A stretch of DNA of 29,874 nucleotides, taken from positions 1 through 29,874 of the IMG/VR virus record IMGVR_UViG_3300027712_000102. One strand, written 5' to 3'. Shown here one piece after another: positions 3,359-29,874 of this stretch (positions are counted from its first letter, which is position 1; the number at the start of each line of letters is the position of its first letter). Both the position numbers and the translations under genes were made by a program. Under the pieces are notes generated by a model. That model was given only the letters and a program-made list of their open reading frames with translations. It was not told where the DNA came from and made no database searches. This stretch comes from a virus.

Positions 3359-4174
3359 ATGGGATTAGTACGAGGTGAAGATGTAATACTTAGTATGTAT
3401 ACTCAAACAGCTACAGGGTTTGATTACGTTCCATTTGGTTGTGCTAGATCAGTGACCTTTGACATCTCAACAGACTTTATAGAAACATCAGTTACCGAAT
3501 CGGGAGCATTCAAAACTTTTTTACCAGCAGGTAAACAATATAGCGGAAATATTGAGGGGTTGGTTTTTTTAGATAAACCACAATTAAACGAAACAAGGGC
3601 AACTACAACTTTAGATTTAACTGATATTTCAGATAGTGGAGAATTTCCAACAACTGGTAATTTATTTTGTTTAATAAGAGCTTTTGAGATTACTGGTTGG
3701 GTAAATTTATTTGTTACTTCAACGGGTATTTTTGCAACATTTGCTGATTTTTTATCTTATATGAATAATGGTATAAATTCTGGTGCAACTGGTTATACAT
3801 CAGTAATTAGTGGTAATAGTTTAATTATAACTGTAAGACCAGGATTAGGATCATCAATAAATGGATGGAATTCTCAATGTCAATATGAATTTAGCCCTGC
3901 ACCTGGAGTAAATATTGATGCAACATTTTCAGGTGGTATTTATGGCTATTATCCATCTAAAATAAGCATGGGGTTTTTATACAATAAATTTATGGTTGGT
4001 GATTCAATTCAAATAAAATATTACGAAACTGATGATGAAAATCATTATTTGTATAAAGTTTGTCAAGTGTATATTGAATCAATAAACGAGACTGCATCAT
4101 TCGATAATATTGCAACATTTTCAGCATCATTTAAAGGCACTGGAGTACCAAATATAAGTTATGGACAAATTTAA
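3359..4174 (+). CDS. Tail-tube-fold protein with an inserted domain
   Basis: 271 aa. Residues 1-85 (GEDVILSMYTQT, then SVTFDISTDFIETSV, then KQYSGNIEGLVFLDK) look like the first half of a major tail tube protein. Residues about 210-271 (GDSIQIKYYETDD, then ATFSASFKGTGVP) look like the second half. About 110 residues in between are an insertion containing FADFLSYMNNGINSGATGYTSV and SLIITVRPGLGSSINGW, a pattern seen as a separate small beta domain in other phage proteins. Lying after the hub gene, it may be a baseplate or tail-tip ring with a tube fold rather than the main tube. The main tube candidates are at 26906 and 27347. It overlaps the fibre gene by 14 bases. Confidence 0.6.
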   Translation: MGLVRGEDVILSMYTQTATGFDYVPFGCARSVTFDISTDFIETSVTESGAFKTFLPAGKQYSGNIEGLVFLDKPQLNETRATTTLDLTDISDSGEFPTTGNLFCLIRAFEITGWVNLFVTSTGIFATFADFLSYMNNGINSGATGYTSVISGNSLIITVRPGLGSSINGWNSQCQYEFSPAPGVNIDATFSGGIYGYYPSKISMGFLYNKFMVGDSIQIKYYETDDENHYLYKVCQVYIESINETASFDNIATFSASFKGTGVPNISYGQI

Positions 4175-6560
4175 ATACATACTATTATGTGCTATTCTTT
4201 TATGCACAATTACTACGTTTGCTCAACCTGCACAGTATACACCAATGACAGCTGCTGGTTATCAGATGAAGCGTTTAAAGGTGGATTCAACACTACATCT
4301 ACCGAGTTTTTGTGGTGTTCCAACTATTCGTGGTAGTCAAGTAAAAGATGGGGCCTTAGCAATAGATACGTGTGGAGCTTTACTTTATATGTGGACTAAT
4401 CAATTTGGTTGGGATACGGTTAATACATCAGGTGGTGATGGTTCACAAGATTTACAAAGTGTACTTAATACTGGAAATACATCTATAAATAAAGATATTA
4501 GTCTTTATGGTAAATCTACAGCTAATGAAGTTTACATTTCAGGAATGGATAATAATTTCATGCCATTTATAGCTCTTGGTGATTCAATTGGTGGTGGCAT
4601 TTATCAATACACTTATCCTAAAGCTACTATTGAGTTTATAAATAAATACATGTCGCAAAAATTAAAAGGTCAAGATAGCACTAGATCAATAATTTACTTA
4701 CCAGTACAAACAATAGATGCTACTGATACATTGGCTAAGCTTAGTGATGTAAGATTAGCAAGTGCAACACCAACATTGCAACAGGTAACTACATCAGGTG
4801 CTGTAAGTACAAATAATATTACAGTAAATGGATTAACTTTAGGTTCATTAGCTAGTGGGTTAGATTTTACAGGAAATACAAATCAATTAATAGTTAGTAA
4901 TAGAGGTACTTCTGATAATTTATTAGAAATAAATTATGGTGCAACAGGTAGTTTAAAATTTGGTGGTGGCACTTATCCTTATGTTGAATTAATAAATAAT
5001 CCTGATAATAATGTTGGACTTCAAGTACCAAGTACAGGTGGAACAATTCCAATTTCAGTAAATGGTTATACTGCAAATACAGCTGGTAATATAACTATTC
5101 CTGCAGGTGGGAACGATACAACAAAAGTGCCTTATACTGGTGCAAATAAAGATGTAAATATAGGCACACACGATTTGTATACAAACAAAGTTTATTTGTT
5201 AGATGAATCTAATGTAAATTATGGTAGTATACATTATACTGATGGAGATTTTCATGTTGAGGATGCAGATAATCACAAATTATTAGTTATTGAAGATGGA
5301 TTTATGCAATTGCATCTTAATGATACAATTCAATCAAATATATTTACTACTAGTTTAACTCAAATAAGAAACCATACTTTGCCTGATAAAGATGGCACAT
5401 TTGCAATGTTATCAGATATAAATGGTAAGCTAAATATTAGTGATACTGCAAGTATGCTTACTAACTATGCAAGAACTAATGCATTAGCAACAAAATTAAA
5501 TATCAGTGACACTGCATCAATGCTTACACCTTATGCACGTACTAATGCGGTAAATGTAAAGTTAAATATTAGTGACACAGCAACCATGTTAAGTAACTAT
5601 GCAAGAACTAATGCTGTAAATGTAAAGTTAAACATCAGTGATACAGCAACCATGTTAAGTAACTATGCAAGAACTAATGCTGTAAATGTAAAGTTAAACA
5701 TCAGTGATACAGCAACCATGTTAAGTAACTATGCAAGAACTAATGCTGTAAATGTAAAGTTAAATATCAGTGATACAGCAACCATGTTAAGTAACTATGC
5801 AAGAACTAATGCTGTAAATGTAAAGTTAAATATCAGTGACACAGCAAGTATGCTTAGTCCATACATACGTACAAATGTTGCAAATGCATCAATAGCAAGT
5901 AAAGTAAACATTAGTGATACAGCAAGTATGCTTAGTCCATACATACGTACAAACGTTGCAAATGCATCATTAGCAACTAAGCTAAATATTAGTGATGCAA
6001 ATCAAACTATTTCAGCATTCCAATATTTAGGCAGTTCAATAAAGTTTTTCCCTATAGGTGTAAGTTCATTTATTCAAGCAACAACTAACTTGCAATTTAT
6101 TAATACTAGAATATTTCTAACAGCTATTTATGTTCCAACAACAACAACTGTTACAGGTGTAAAATGGATTACAGGTAGTGCTGGTACTGCTTATGTTGGT
6201 GGTGCTAATTATAACGGTATTGCATTGTATAGTTATAATGTTGGTACAGGACTTTGTACGAGAATAGACTCAACAGCATCTGATGCAAATACATGGACAA
6301 CAGCAGGTTTTAATTCAAAAGCTTTTGTAACAACTGCATCATTATCTCAGGGAGTTTATTACTTAGCTGCAATATGCAATGGTACTGCTACAACTTTTCC
6401 ATCTATAGTACAAACTCTTGCACAATCTACAGTTACAACATATGATTTTACATCACCTGCAAAATTAACAGGTAATTCAGCTGGTACAGTATCTCCAGCA
6501 TCATTTAATCTATCAACAATAACAGCAACAACAAATACACCTGTAATCGCATTATATTAA
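4161..6560 (+). CDS. Tail fibre / receptor-binding protein with signal peptide and 22-aa repeats
   Basis: 799 aa. Residues 1-21 (MDKFKYILLCAILLCTITTFAQ) form a textbook Bacteroidota signal peptide: positive start, hydrophobic core, FAQ cleavage context. A beta-rich shaft follows, then at residues about 423-606 a tandem array of KLNISDTAxML units (22 aa, the last two 26 aa), typical of trimeric phage fibre shafts. Residues about 615-799 form a Thr/Ala/Tyr-rich C-terminal domain that probably contacts the receptor. Position after the baseplate genes fits a host-recognition fibre. The signal peptide is odd because phage tails normally assemble in the cytoplasm; it may be kept from a host surface-protein ancestor or used as a hydrophobic docking segment. 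Confidence 0.75.
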   Translation: MDKFKYILLCAILLCTITTFAQPAQYTPMTAAGYQMKRLKVDSTLHLPSFCGVPTIRGSQVKDGALAIDTCGALLYMWTNQFGWDTVNTSGGDGSQDLQSVLNTGNTSINKDISLYGKSTANEVYISGMDNNFMPFIALGDSIGGGIYQYTYPKATIEFINKYMSQKLKGQDSTRSIIYLPVQTIDATDTLAKLSDVRLASATPTLQQVTTSGAVSTNNITVNGLTLGSLASGLDFTGNTNQLIVSNRGTSDNLLEINYGATGSLKFGGGTYPYVELINNPDNNVGLQVPSTGGTIPISVNGYTANTAGNITIPAGGNDTTKVPYTGANKDVNIGTHDLYTNKVYLLDESNVNYGSIHYTDGDFHVEDADNHKLLVIEDGFMQLHLNDTIQSNIFTTSLTQIRNHTLPDKDGTFAMLSDINGKLNISDTASMLTNYARTNALATKLNISDTASMLTPYARTNAVNVKLNISDTATMLSNYARTNAVNVKLNISDTATMLSNYARTNAVNVKLNISDTATMLSNYARTNAVNVKLNISDTATMLSNYARTNAVNVKLNISDTASMLSPYIRTNVANASIASKVNISDTASMLSPYIRTNVANASLATKLNISDANQTISAFQYLGSSIKFFPIGVSSFIQATTNLQFINTRIFLTAIYVPTTTTVTGVKWITGSAGTAYVGGANYNGIALYSYNVGTGLCTRIDSTASDANTWTTAGFNSKAFVTTASLSQGVYYLAAICNGTATTFPSIVQTLAQSTVTTYDFTSPAKLTGNSAGTVSPASFNLSTITATTNTPVIALY
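5427..5978 (+). repeat. Tandem in-frame repeat array in fibre gene (6 x 66 bp + 2 x 78 bp)
   Basis: Units begin with an AAG (Lys) codon at 5427, 5493, 5559, 5625, 5691, 5757 (66-bp units) and at 5823 and 5901 (78-bp units); a partial unit begins at 5979. Units 3-6 encode the same 22 residues, and units 4 and 5 (5625-5690, 5691-5756) appear identical in DNA. The near identity at DNA level points to recent unit duplication, so copy number is likely variable between strains. Confidence 0.92.
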
Positions 6561-24798: not shown

Positions 24799-24829
24799 AA
24801 AGGCCCTGCCCTACGGGGTGGGGCTTTTT
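24799..24829 (+). terminator. Rho-independent terminator after capsid gene
   Basis: AAAGGCCCTGCCC (24799-24811) pairs with GGGTGGGGCTTTT (24816-24828): a 13-bp stem including three G-T pairs, closed by a C(TACG)G tetraloop, followed by T. It is strong, yet lies inside the morphogenesis operon, so partial read-through is expected to set the ratio of capsid to connector and tail messages. Confidence 0.9.
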
Positions 24830-25936: not shown

Positions 25937-26463
25937 TGCAATTAGAAGTAAAAGGCATAGATACGCTAATAAAAAAGTTTGATAAGTTGGCATCTGATGC
26001 TAAGGATCAAGTGCAAGCTGAACTAAACGATTGGGCAGATACAACAGCACAAAATGCAAAATCATTAGTATCAGCAAATAGCAGTGATGAGGGATTGTTG
26101 CTTAGGAGCATTAATCCTAATTATGGCAATGGCTCAGCAAGTATAACGGCATCAGCAAAGTATGCAGCATATGTTGAATTTGGTACTAGAAAATATGCAG
26201 CAGCTTATGTTAGTAGTTTACCTGCAGATTGGCAAACATACGCAGCAACATTTAAAGGAAGTACAGGAGGAACATTTAAGCAGTTTGTAGATTCACTTAT
26301 TGGATGGGCAAATAGAACGGGTAAAATGGATCCTAAATATGCTTATGTTACAGCATTAAAAATATTAAGAGAAGGCGTAACAGCAAGACCATTTCTTTAC
26401 CCATCAGTGCAAAAAACATTACCAGTGCTTAGGAAAAATTTAAAAGCAATATTTAAATTATGA
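25936..26463 (+). CDS. HK97 gp10-like tail completion protein
   Basis: 175 aa. Starts in the TAATG overlap. MQLEVKGIDTLIKKFDKLA is the usual family opening; YAAYVEFGTRK and GVTARPFLYPSVQ are the family's signature phrases. There is an insertion of about 50 residues between them, containing WQTYAATFKGSTGG. The family completes the neck between head and tail. Confidence 0.9.
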   Translation: MQLEVKGIDTLIKKFDKLASDAKDQVQAELNDWADTTAQNAKSLVSANSSDEGLLLRSINPNYGNGSASITASAKYAAYVEFGTRKYAAAYVSSLPADWQTYAATFKGSTGGTFKQFVDSLIGWANRTGKMDPKYAYVTALKILREGVTARPFLYPSVQKTLPVLRKNLKAIFKL

Positions 26464-26885
26464 GAGATGTAAACAGTGCAATATTACAAGCTTACTATGA
26501 GATAGTGAACGGATTGGATATTCCTGTTTATGAGGGTGAAGAACCGGATGATGTGAAGCATAAAATTTATTGCGTTATTAATGATGCAACATCAACTGAA
26601 ACAAGCACAGCAAATACATCAGACGTTAATTTAACTATACAACTTAGCGTACATAGTTGGGAATATAAATACAACAATAGTAAAACATTAAATACAGCGT
26701 GTGGGGCAATTATAGACGCAATAAAGCCACAAGGAGTTAGTAACATAGATTTGTCAGCCTATGGATTGCAAATGTGTAATTTAACCCTACAAACAGATAG
26801 GACTGAAAGATTTGGCAATTTGGGAGGCAAAGTATTTATTTCAAGAATATTGATATTTAAACAAGATATTTTCGTAATTTCATAA
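26460..26885 (+). CDS. Tail terminator / completion protein (DUF3168-like)
   Basis: 141 aa, with a 4-base ATGA overlap to gp10. MRDVNSAILQAYYEIVNGLDIPVYEG and KHKIYCVINDATSTET are typical of small tail-terminator proteins: N-terminal helix, then beta-sheet, with LTIQLSVHSW and the final FISRILIFKQ strand. It caps the growing tail tube at its head-proximal end. Assignment relies on pattern and position before the tube genes. Confidence 0.8.
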   Translation: MRDVNSAILQAYYEIVNGLDIPVYEGEEPDDVKHKIYCVINDATSTETSTANTSDVNLTIQLSVHSWEYKYNNSKTLNTACGAIIDAIKPQGVSNIDLSAYGLQMCNLTLQTDRTERFGNLGGKVFISRILIFKQDIFVIS

Positions 26886-26905: not shown

Positions 26906-27337
26906 ATGGCAGAACACAAAGTAGCAGGTGGTACAATGTTATTATTCATTGATCCTGCAGGTGGTACGGCATACGATACTGTAGTTTGTTTGACTTCAGT
27001 AGGTAAAGCTGATTCAGTAACTGTAGTTGATGCAGCTTCAGCATGTGGCCCGGATAAAAGTCCAGGCACATTAGAGTTATCATACTCTTTTGAAGGTCAG
27101 CATTTACAAGATCCAACAACAGGTAGAATCAGTGGTACTGATTTACGTACATTGTTGAGAGGTAAAACTATAATTGGTTGGAAGATAGCACCTGAAACAC
27201 CAGTAACAGGAGATGAGATTGAAAGTGGAACAGGATTTTTATCAGAATTAAGTAGCACATACGCATTTGATTCAGTTGGTACATTTACTGGTTCTATACA
27301 GCCTCAAGGAACACCAACATTATCTGTACAAGCTTAA
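26906..27337 (+). CDS. Major tail protein, short form
   Basis: 143 aa tail-tube protein: HKVAGGTMLLFIDPAGG start, VVCLTSVGKADSVTVVDAAS, SYSFEGQHLQDP, GTDLRTLLRG and the closing TGSIQPQGTP. The tube is made of hexamers of this protein around the tape measure. By eye it is identical to the first ~141 residues of the next gene at about 120 positions, so the pair is a gene duplication. It ends with TAATAA, so there is no read-through into the next gene. Confidence 0.85.
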   Translation: MAEHKVAGGTMLLFIDPAGGTAYDTVVCLTSVGKADSVTVVDAASACGPDKSPGTLELSYSFEGQHLQDPTTGRISGTDLRTLLRGKTIIGWKIAPETPVTGDEIESGTGFLSELSSTYAFDSVGTFTGSIQPQGTPTLSVQA

Positions 27338-27346
27338 TAATAAAAA

Positions 27347-28357
27347 ATGGCTGAACATAAAGTACAAGGTGGCAACATGCTACTTTTTATTGATTCAAAT
27401 GGAGGTACGGCATACGATATAGTTGTATGCCTTACTTCCGTTAGTAAATCAGATAGTATAACTGTTGTTGATGCAGCTTCAGCATGTGGACCTGATAAAA
27501 GTCCGGGTACATTGGAGTTATCCTATGCTTTTGAAGGTCAGCATTTGCAAGATCCTGATAGTGGTAGAATCAGTGGTACTGATTTGAGATTTTTATTAAG
27601 AGCTGAGCAAACCATAGGATGGAAGATAGCACCTGAGACACCAGTAACAGGAGATGAAATAGAAAGTGGAACGGGATTTTTATCTGAGTTAAGTTCTACT
27701 TATTCATTTGATAGTATTGGTACTTTTACCGGTAGTATTCAGCCTTATGGCACACCTTCATTAAGTATTTATAATAGTTCAACATCATCTGTAAATATTG
27801 GTGGTTACAATTGGATGACAAAAAATCTAAGTGTTACCACTTATGCTAATGGTGATGCAATACCTGAAGTAAGTGATCCTACAGCATGGGCAGCATTAAG
27901 TACTGGGGCTTGGTGTTATTATAACAATGATCCATCAACTGAACCAATATATGGCAGATTATATAATTGGTTTGCAGTAGCTGATATTAGAGGTTTAAAG
28001 CCTGATAATGATTTTGGATGGATTGTTCCTAATGAAGGTCAATTTAATTATTTATTTACTACTGTATCTAATGATGGTGGAGCTTTAAAAGAGGCAGGAA
28101 CTGCACATTGGTTAGCACCTAATACTGGAGCTACTAATTCATCAGGATTTACAGCAGTACCGGGTGGAGTAAGACAAGCAAATGGTACATTTGGTGGTAG
28201 TGGTGAAAGTATTGGCGAAGCTAGTGAATACTGGGTAGCTGGTAGTGCTGGGGGTACAGATGCGAGAAGTGAAGGAATATATTATAACGACAATGGTACT
28301 TACTATAACATATTTGACCAAAATGCAGGTTTATCAGTTAGATGTTTTTGGGATTAA
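27347..28357 (+). CDS. Major tail protein, long form with FISUMP domain
   Basis: 336 aa. Residues 1 to about 138 repeat the short tail protein. Residues about 147-336 are a FISUMP domain, a paralogous domain first named in Fibrobacter and related to the C-type-lectin-like/DUF1566 folds: NIGGYNWMTKNL, WCYYNNDP, YGRLYNWFAVADIRGL, GWIVPNEGQF, SGFTAVPGGVR and the closing GLSVRCFWD. The domain would be displayed on the tail surface at each ring where the long form is used, as in lambda gpV Ig-like decorations. It may bind host glycans. Expression ratio to the short form is not visible in the sequence. Confidence 0.88.
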   Translation: MAEHKVQGGNMLLFIDSNGGTAYDIVVCLTSVSKSDSITVVDAASACGPDKSPGTLELSYAFEGQHLQDPDSGRISGTDLRFLLRAEQTIGWKIAPETPVTGDEIESGTGFLSELSSTYSFDSIGTFTGSIQPYGTPSLSIYNSSTSSVNIGGYNWMTKNLSVTTYANGDAIPEVSDPTAWAALSTGAWCYYNNDPSTEPIYGRLYNWFAVADIRGLKPDNDFGWIVPNEGQFNYLFTTVSNDGGALKEAGTAHWLAPNTGATNSSGFTAVPGGVRQANGTFGGSGESIGEASEYWVAGSAGGTDARSEGIYYNDNGTYYNIFDQNAGLSVRCFWD

Positions 28358-28380: not shown

Positions 28381-28728
28381 ATGAAAATTAAACTAAACGA
28401 AAAAGAGTACGGCATTAAATTCAATCAATTAGCCATTGAGAAGCTACATGAATATAATGATGGCGAGACTACATCAGGATTTATGTATGCAATGGTTTAC
28501 GGTGGTATGATTGGTTACAGCAGATTAAAGCGTGAAGATGTCGAGTACACATGGGAGTTAGTATGTGATTGGGTTGATGCAATGGAAAATAAGAATGAGC
28601 AGATACAAGCTATTACCATTGAATTAAATGAGACGAAGTTATGGAATGACTTGATAAAACAAGGTCAAGAGATAAGAGAAAATGAGGAGAAAAAAAAAGT
28701 CATCGAGAAAAGTGCTACGACAACTTAA
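28381..28728 (+). CDS. Tail assembly chaperone, short form (gpG-like)
   Basis: 115 aa. MKIKLNEKEYGIKFNQLAIEKLHEY is a typical start of a tail chaperone, and it lies between tail-tube and tape-measure genes. The end is Lys-rich (ENEEKKKVIEKSATTT) because it passes through a nine-A run at 28690-28698 where ribosomes probably shift. Confidence 0.85.
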   Translation: MKIKLNEKEYGIKFNQLAIEKLHEYNDGETTSGFMYAMVYGGMIGYSRLKREDVEYTWELVCDWVDAMENKNEQIQAITIELNETKLWNDLIKQGQEIRENEEKKKVIEKSATTT

Positions 28729-29015
28729 AGTTTGCGTTAGGTAAGTTAGGATGGAGTGTAGATCAATATTATTGCTCAATGCCTCATGAGTTTTATGCAG
28801 CGTGTGAGGGATATCAGGAGAGGCAAAAAGAATCGGCTATGGTCATTCGTTTTGCCTCTTTTCGCATAGCAGAAGCAATGGCAGGAAGTAAGGCAATAGG
28901 TAAGATTAATCGTTTTTGGCCAATGGATGATGAGCAAGATAAAAAACAGATTGAGCCAATGACGGCTGAGCGTTACAATGCTATTTTAGAAAGACACAAT
29001 TTAAAGATTAAATAA
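28381..29015 (+). CDS. Tail assembly chaperone, -1 frameshift product (gpGT-like)
   Basis: After a -1 shift in the A run, the reading frame starting at 28698 is open without a stop to 29015: SHREKCYDNLKFALGKLGW, then residues in the second part as MPHEFYAACEGYQERQKES. The product is about 106 + 105 = 211 aa. The open frame from the run up to the first ATG (28779) is better explained by frameshifting than by an independent start at 28779. The long form, made at low level, binds the tape measure while the short form covers it. Its stop overlaps the tape-measure ATG as TAATG. Confidence 0.85.
28690..28698 (+). promoter_or_regulatory. Slippery run A9G for -1 programmed frameshift
   Basis: Frame-0 codons are GAG AAA AAA AAA GTC, so A AAA AAA fits the X XXY YYZ rule, with AAA re-pairing after a -1 slip. 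A frame open to the tape-measure start begins right here. No stimulatory stem or pseudoknot was worked out. Confidence 0.8.
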
Positions 29016-29874
29016 TGGCAGAAGAGATAGAGATAATAGTCACGGCAACAGGTTTTGATAAAGTTAGTTCAGGTTTAAAAAATACTACTGATGCATTAAA
29101 GTCTACAGCTACTGAAGCTAAAAAGACTGGTGATGCATTAAAGAGTAATTTAAATGCTGGTGCAGCTCAAGCAGGTCAATCTATCACAAATTTATCTAGA
29201 GTAGTTCAGGATGCTCCATTTGGCTTTATAGGTATAGCCAACAACATCAATCCATTAGTAGAATCATTTGGCAGATTAAAAGCTGAGACTGGCAGTACAG
29301 GTGGAGCGTTAAAAGCATTGGTTAGTGGATTAAGTGGTCCGGCTGGTTTGGGTTTGGCATTTGGTGTAGTAACGGCAGCTATAACTTTTGCACAAATGGG
29401 TTTTCAAGCTTGGACTAGAGGAAGCAAAGATGCAAAAGAAAATTCAGATTTATTTAAGAAAGATTTAGAGGCATTAAAAAGAGAATTATTAGCTGTTACT
29501 GATGAGTTGAATAATTTTATAAATGTTGCTGAAAATTCAGCTAAATTAAATGATATAAATATTGTCGCAAGATTTGAAGATAAAACTCAGCAAGGTGTTT
29601 TACAAAGACAAGCTAAATTTATTACAATATCTGAGGAGTTAGTAAAAGCTACTGAAGCAAGAGAAAAAGCTTTAATAAATTTACAAGATGTTACAAGAAA
29701 TCAATTTAAAACTGAAGAGGAATACAATCAAGCTTATAAAGCGGCTTTAGATGTTTATAATCAAACTATAAAAAAAGAGAATGAGTTAAGTGCAGCAAGA
29801 GAATTACAAGCTGCAACAAATAGAGCTACAACAGTTGAAGAACAAAGGGCATCAGCACAAAGAGCCATACAAAA
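29015..29874 (+). CDS. Tail tape measure protein, N-terminal part (continues at base 140)
   Basis: Starts at the ATG of the TAATG overlap with the chaperone frame (MAEEIEIIVTATGFDKVSSG). The reading frame runs to the window end without a stop and continues across the circle junction to the stop at 1091 (603 aa). The N-terminal ~110 residues contain the usual helical pattern with LKNTTDALKSTATEAKKTGDAL, then a hydrophobic stretch around 29280-29400 (GPAGLGLAFGVVTAAITFAQ). The long helical region after that is characteristic of tape measures. Confidence 0.9.
   Translation, partial: MAEEIEIIVTATGFDKVSSGLKNTTDALKSTATEAKKTGDALKSNLNAGAAQAGQSITNLSRVVQDAPFGFIGIANNINPLVESFGRLKAETGSTGGALKALVSGLSGPAGLGLAFGVVTAAITFAQMGFQAWTRGSKDAKENSDLFKKDLEALKRELLAVTDELNNFINVAENSAKLNDINIVARFEDKTQQGVLQRQAKFITISEELVKATEAREKALINLQDVTRNQFKTEEEYNQAYKAALDVYNQTIKKENELSAARELQAATNRATTVEEQRASAQRAIQ
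29736..29874. repeat. Right copy of terminal direct repeat (circle junction)
   Basis: Same sequence as 1-139, one mismatch (29748 T against 13 C). With this overlap removed the unique circle is 29,735 bases. Confidence 0.9.

Follow-up and report, generated by a model that had tools for sequence, protein, structure and literature searches.

A tandem second copy of a phage tail-tube gene and its probable use as an optional carrier of binding domains on the tail shaft

Why should a phage encode its tail tube twice in succession, the second time with a large C-terminal extension? The question is raised by IMG/VR virus record IMGVR_UViG_3300027712_000102, the whole of which (29,874 nucleotides, hereafter the window) was analysed, together with related loci (L numbers).

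Two tube genes and their surroundings in the window

In the window a bare tail-tube gene (B) is followed by a decorated gene (D; 27347-28357, 336 aa). The initial annotation had described two consecutive, near-identical major tail genes, the second extended by about 190 residues of FISUMP, and both statements hold: the two open reading frames are present and are paralogous, their proteins agreeing far above chance at about 120 of 141 positions, and D has 195 residues beyond the B-like part, with PF09603 (Fib_succ_major) matching residues 149-333 at 106.7 bits, above the curated cut-off of 33.9 bits. At the DNA level, the 5' parts of B and D form a direct repeat of 300 nt with 77% identity and a spacing of 441. 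Family match (for D, PHROG 1407 with E 1.3e-5), gene position and, for D, the predicted tube fold identify both products as siphophage major tail proteins, and their genes are placed after a tail terminator homologue and before two small genes and the tape measure gene (Table 1). A full-length model of D, built from a checked alignment, reached a mean pLDDT of 80.7, the FISUMP part lying mostly above 90 and the platform, modelled with modest confidence, at about 40-83. Searched with Foldseek against the PDB, whole D retrieved lambda gpV (7.6e-4), monocin, NF5, 80alpha and other tubes (prob 0.97-1.0), and the structural comparison with gpV that had been suggested thus came out in favour of a tube. 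Among viral models the matches were an 84% identical tail protein of 142 aa and FISUMP proteins of uncultured phages.

Table 1. Positions of the tail genes and of their parts in the window, and of hairpins behind B in loci without D
Feature	Positions	Strand	Remarks
Tail terminator homologue	26460..26885	+	PHROG 176 tail terminator, E 2.2e-5; same place in relatives
Bare tail-tube (major tail) protein B	26906..27337	+	143 aa; PHROG 1407 major tail protein, E 1.4e-9
B-to-D junction	27338..27346	+	9 nt; a hairpin cannot fit; D has its own ATG
Tube platform of D, residues 1-141	27347..27769	+	85% identity to B; top Foldseek matches are tail tubes
Linker of D, platform to display domain	27770..27790	+	Ser/Thr/Asn-rich, from translation
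FISUMP (PF09603) display domain of D	27791..28345	+	E 2.2e-30
Putative tail assembly chaperone, first gene	28381..28728	+	Assigned by position; directly after B in loci without D
Putative second tail assembly chaperone gene	28779..29015	+	Assigned by position; order conserved in relatives
Tape measure gene, start	29015..29874	+	Runs on at 1-1091; L003 bridges both window ends
Third tail-tube-like paralogue	3359..4174	+	271 aa; PHROG 1407, E 8.9e-18; adjoins tail-tip genes
Hairpins 3' of B, loci without D	L004 3420-3494; L005 6433-6505; L031 6433-6488; L035 6433-6502; L183 3176-3251		

As the break in the record falls within the tape measure gene, this gene is split between the window ends. The ends (1-139 and 29736-29874) overlap over 139 bases with one mismatch, and L003 (6095 bases) spans their join at 100% and 99.97% identity; the record, though classed as linear, is therefore a nearly complete genome (about 29.7 kb), and the absence of a second FISUMP domain (the one in D is the single copy of PF09603 in the record) applies to the whole phage. 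The first putative chaperone gene had no family match in Pfam-type and PHROG searches. The third tube-like paralogue had been missed before; it carries an optional internal insert of about 125 residues, at about 75-200 (absent in L080, L081 and L177), making it another tube-like protein with an optional domain. Beside it, a putative tail fibre (4161-6560) has a signal-peptide-like start (MDKFKYILLCAILLCTITTFAQ) and contains a unit of about 22 residues that is repeated several times almost unchanged (LNISDTATMLSNYARTNAVNVK). Directly 3' of the major capsid gene, a terminator-like hairpin with a T run is found at 24803-24824.

Occurrence and history of the second copy

Searching IMG/VR with B as query gave 108 related stretches, 80 of which were kept; further scans with a divergent decorated platform and an alignment query returned mostly the same contigs and some more divergent ones, and a scan with a very divergent copy found known loci only. 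The bare-copy and divergent-platform scans, deduplicated by tube-protein content, yielded 69 distinct loci. B is present in all 69 and at least one extra copy in 43, so that the search of relatives for the same duplication, which had been proposed as a check, revealed a recurring arrangement. The loci comprise 38 with B and one extended copy, 26 with the bare copy only, three with one bare and two extended copies, one with two bare and one extended, and one with two bare; since L065, one of the bare-only loci, is cut by the contig end, 25 are true single-copy loci. In these, B directly precedes the chaperone homologue with no second tube copy, which indicates that B alone suffices. An extended copy lacking a bare partner was found in none of the 69 loci, the query of the first scan being the bare copy. 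Gene order was constant where readable (terminator, bare, extended, chaperones, tape measure, tip, third paralogue), and L079 reads terminator, extended, bare, extended. None of the cultured phages of the searched collection carried the B/D tube family, and a prophage search for the host returned just proteins of 26-33% identity, from three of the 399 genomes searched in one order.

A tree of 116 tube domains placed 37 of the 45 extended copies in a single group (39 rows; support 87/87, under the customary threshold), separate from nearly all bare copies, with a few divergent extended copies forming an older set. Because the D copies fall mostly in one clade, B and D are mostly old paralogues; in L076 and L069 the extended copy pairs with its own bare copy, as gene conversion or a fresh duplication would give. 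The presence of the second copy requires at least 9 changes on a tree of neighbouring genes from 65 loci (20 with shuffled labels), so that it is inherited, yet often lost or gained; L004, the nearest bare relative of the window, has no second copy. The similarity of the two copies might by itself bring to mind a recent accident or an assembly artefact, but the same pair recurs in contigs of many samples, and its members are 58-90% identical and go back mostly to an old common split, so this explanation is contradicted by the survey and we give it practically no credence.

Both parts of D are under purifying selection: dN/dS between the window and L027 and L030 is about 0.10-0.12 for the platform and about 0.11-0.15 for FISUMP. 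It could still be supposed that D is no working subunit and that an N-terminal remnant just carries FISUMP, which would act free or bound elsewhere. This seems very improbable to us, given that the platform is 85% identical to B, has a dN/dS of about 0.1 and keeps the residues that are invariant across the tube family, and that the arrangement is repeated in dozens of loci.

Contents of the C-terminal slot

The 45 extended copies were sorted by clustering and family searches. Their C-termini comprise Lcl_C/DUF1566-like domains (24), FISUMP (4), Ig-like domains of about 105 aa (4), PKD-like domains (3), Ig combined with Lcl_C (3), BspA-type leucine-rich repeats (LRRs; 2) and short tails of up to 26 residues (3), and two are cut by the contig end. 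Strong family matches were obtained for PF09603, He_PIG (1.2e-11) and LRR_5 (1e-11). The Lcl_C matches are weak one by one but occur in 17 of the 20 members scanned (best 1.2e-8), the members beyond these 20 being assigned by similarity or default, and 'PKD-like' and '105-aa Ig-like' are motif readings that lack a firm family match. FISUMP, Lcl_C/DUF1566-like, Ig-like, Ig + Lcl_C and PKD-like contents all occur within the main D clade, and the BspA-type LRRs sit on divergent D copies; in many relatives the linkers are glycine-rich.

The C-terminal domain has been swapped on a conserved platform. The window and L020 carry unrelated C-termini, FISUMP and Ig-like respectively, on platforms that are 91% identical; L027 and L030 have FISUMP domains at a dS of 0.085 on platforms at a dS of 0.50, and the domain therefore moves independently. 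Between L033 6442-7335 and L038 767-1660, the Lcl_C-like extension has a dN/dS of 0.64 (platform 0.12), so that diversification of this display domain is possible. At L058 6446-7403, L037 744-1716 and L066 6432-7387, second copies with a tail of 15-26 residues are each followed directly by a separate ORF of 150-159 aa. Its last residues are IRVYP in L058 and L066, and it may be a non-covalent version of the decoration.

The display domain had been called lectin-like, a label that is too narrow for a slot which also holds Ig-like and leucine-rich-repeat domains; lectin activity is for this reason one possibility among several. A link between FISUMP and the C-type-lectin fold has been drawn in the literature (PMC8143477), but sequence and profile searches of FISUMP gave no support for it: nothing significant with a solved structure was found for FISUMP in PDB sequence and profile searches, and its profile matched the Lcl_C-like group at 27% probability. 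The Foldseek list for whole D was filled by tubes. The Lcl_C-like group matches a solved protein, HbP1 (8q4e, 1.2e-13), for which our literature search found no paper. FISUMP homologues of about 42-52% identity are widespread in Bacteroidota genomes, and none among those retrieved was attached to a B/D-type tube domain.

In Bacteroides phages, DUF1566/Fib_succ_major proteins are diversified by diversity-generating retroelements (DGRs) and tied to host range (PMC8143477). The same domain families thus occur on phage proteins there, but here the domain sits on a tube paralogue. D as a DGR target is ruled out: no match to a reverse transcriptase (PF00078) was found in 16 records, i.e., the window and 15 related ones, a result that extends to the whole genome only for near-complete records like the window.

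Expression, proposed role and known systems

D was examined as a product of programmed frameshifting or read-through, and this is ruled out because D has its own ATG and may lie in any frame relative to B: among relatives the B-D gap ranges from -1 to 22 nt, and frames 0, 1 and 2 are all seen. The earlier proposal of a separate, duplicated gene with no recoding is thus upheld. In D-containing loci no more than 34 nt separate D from the chaperone, except in the three short-tail loci, which have the extra ORF there. In 19 of the 25 bare-only loci, B is followed by a strong hairpin with stems of about 11-19 pairs (-15 to -27 kcal/mol); it is lacking in five and ambiguous in L181, and the counts are not independent because the loci are related. 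These hairpins represent at least four unrelated sequences, the commonest of which has no clear T run, and none was found behind B in any locus surveyed with a decorated copy. The hairpin may stabilise or attenuate the message, and the decorated gene seems to take its place behind B; judging from these sequences, D is likely to be on the same message as B, with no attenuation between them.

We consider it probable that D is an optional, specialised tube subunit that assembles together with B and presents a binding domain along the shaft. The N-terminal domain of D would enter the virion by building the tail tube jointly with B, mixed with it in some stoichiometry, and the C-terminal domain, here FISUMP, would project on its short linker outside the shaft. 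There, as a glycan-binding or other binding domain, it would contact the host surface, or the host's extracellular polymers, at many points with low affinity, ahead of receptor binding by the tip. Such mosaic tubes of B and D, as we infer them, fit the absence of a hairpin or gap between the two genes and the sufficiency of B in 25 loci.

The platforms of B and main-clade D differ at a few sites. Residue 87 is K in 68/68 bare copies and E in 34/36 main-clade D copies, residue 10 is T in 68/68 bare copies and mostly D or N in decorated ones, and residue 7 is A in bare copies and mostly Q or E in main-clade decorated ones. The charge reversal at residue 87, fixed in opposite states in the two kinds of copy, could reflect a contact between unlike subunits, although it counts as one or few events because the copies share ancestry. 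The diagnostic sites K87 to E87 and T10 to D/N could, however, also mark a fixed position, if D formed one special ring, e.g., adjoining the terminator or the tip of the tail, and the third tube paralogue beside the tip genes demonstrates that specialised copies exist in this phage. We regard a single ring as unlikely, since no hairpin separates B from D, so that D is probably made in quantity, since many relatives do without D, so that no ring position depends on it, and since it is probably the third paralogue that serves on the tip side. Returning to D as a subunit displayed along the shaft, a stronger version can be proposed tentatively and with more doubt than confidence: the locus might be a dedicated, genetically separate slot of a lineage of uncultured phages, in which the contact sites of D have diverged (K87 to E87), the two subunits co-assemble in an ordered ratio, unrelated binding folds are exchanged and D replaces a hairpin that sets expression.

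The initial annotation had cited lambda and TP901-1 as cases of an extra surface domain; the latter does not apply, the tube protein of TP901-1 being naked (PMC6669499), and the frameshift case is SPP1, with short (gp17.1) and C-terminally extended (gp17.1*) forms at 3:1, the extension being dispensable (PMC7666168). SPP1 resembles the B/D tube proposed here in having a short and an extended form, but its long form arises by translational frameshift of one gene and adds an FN3 domain, whereas D is a separate paralogue with its own start codon and adds FISUMP. In the 936-group lactococcal phages, TpeX carries a C-terminal host-binding domain on part of the tube subunits, and fluorescent TpeX bound host cells (PMC6669499). 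Some of these phages lack the decoration, as do some of the loci surveyed here; however, TpeX is made by programmed frameshift and not by a paralogue, and every TpeX is a version of a single BppA-like module, in contrast to the unrelated domain families in the slot described here. Lambda gpV, T5 pb6 and the JBD30 major tail protein combine, like D, a tube domain with a surface domain, there Ig-like, but they have it on every subunit with no bare copy. Our literature search, mostly outside subscription journals, found no published tandem tube paralogues.

In known phages, shaft domains are thus placed on every tube subunit or added via recoding, and, if our reading is true, a third route to shaft decoration would be a distinct paralogue whose C-terminus can be exchanged, by which shaft chemistry could evolve without touching the essential tube gene. 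Natural pairs with and without a decorated copy, e.g., the window and L004, are available for asking what shaft decorations do, given that SPP1 survives without its own. D might also serve as an existing platform by which fused domains are put on a tube in a defined proportion. As a separate observation on the tail, loci with a decorated copy tend to have longer tape measures (Mann-Whitney p 0.0025, ancestry not corrected), those of loci with two such copies being 1214-1360 aa long.
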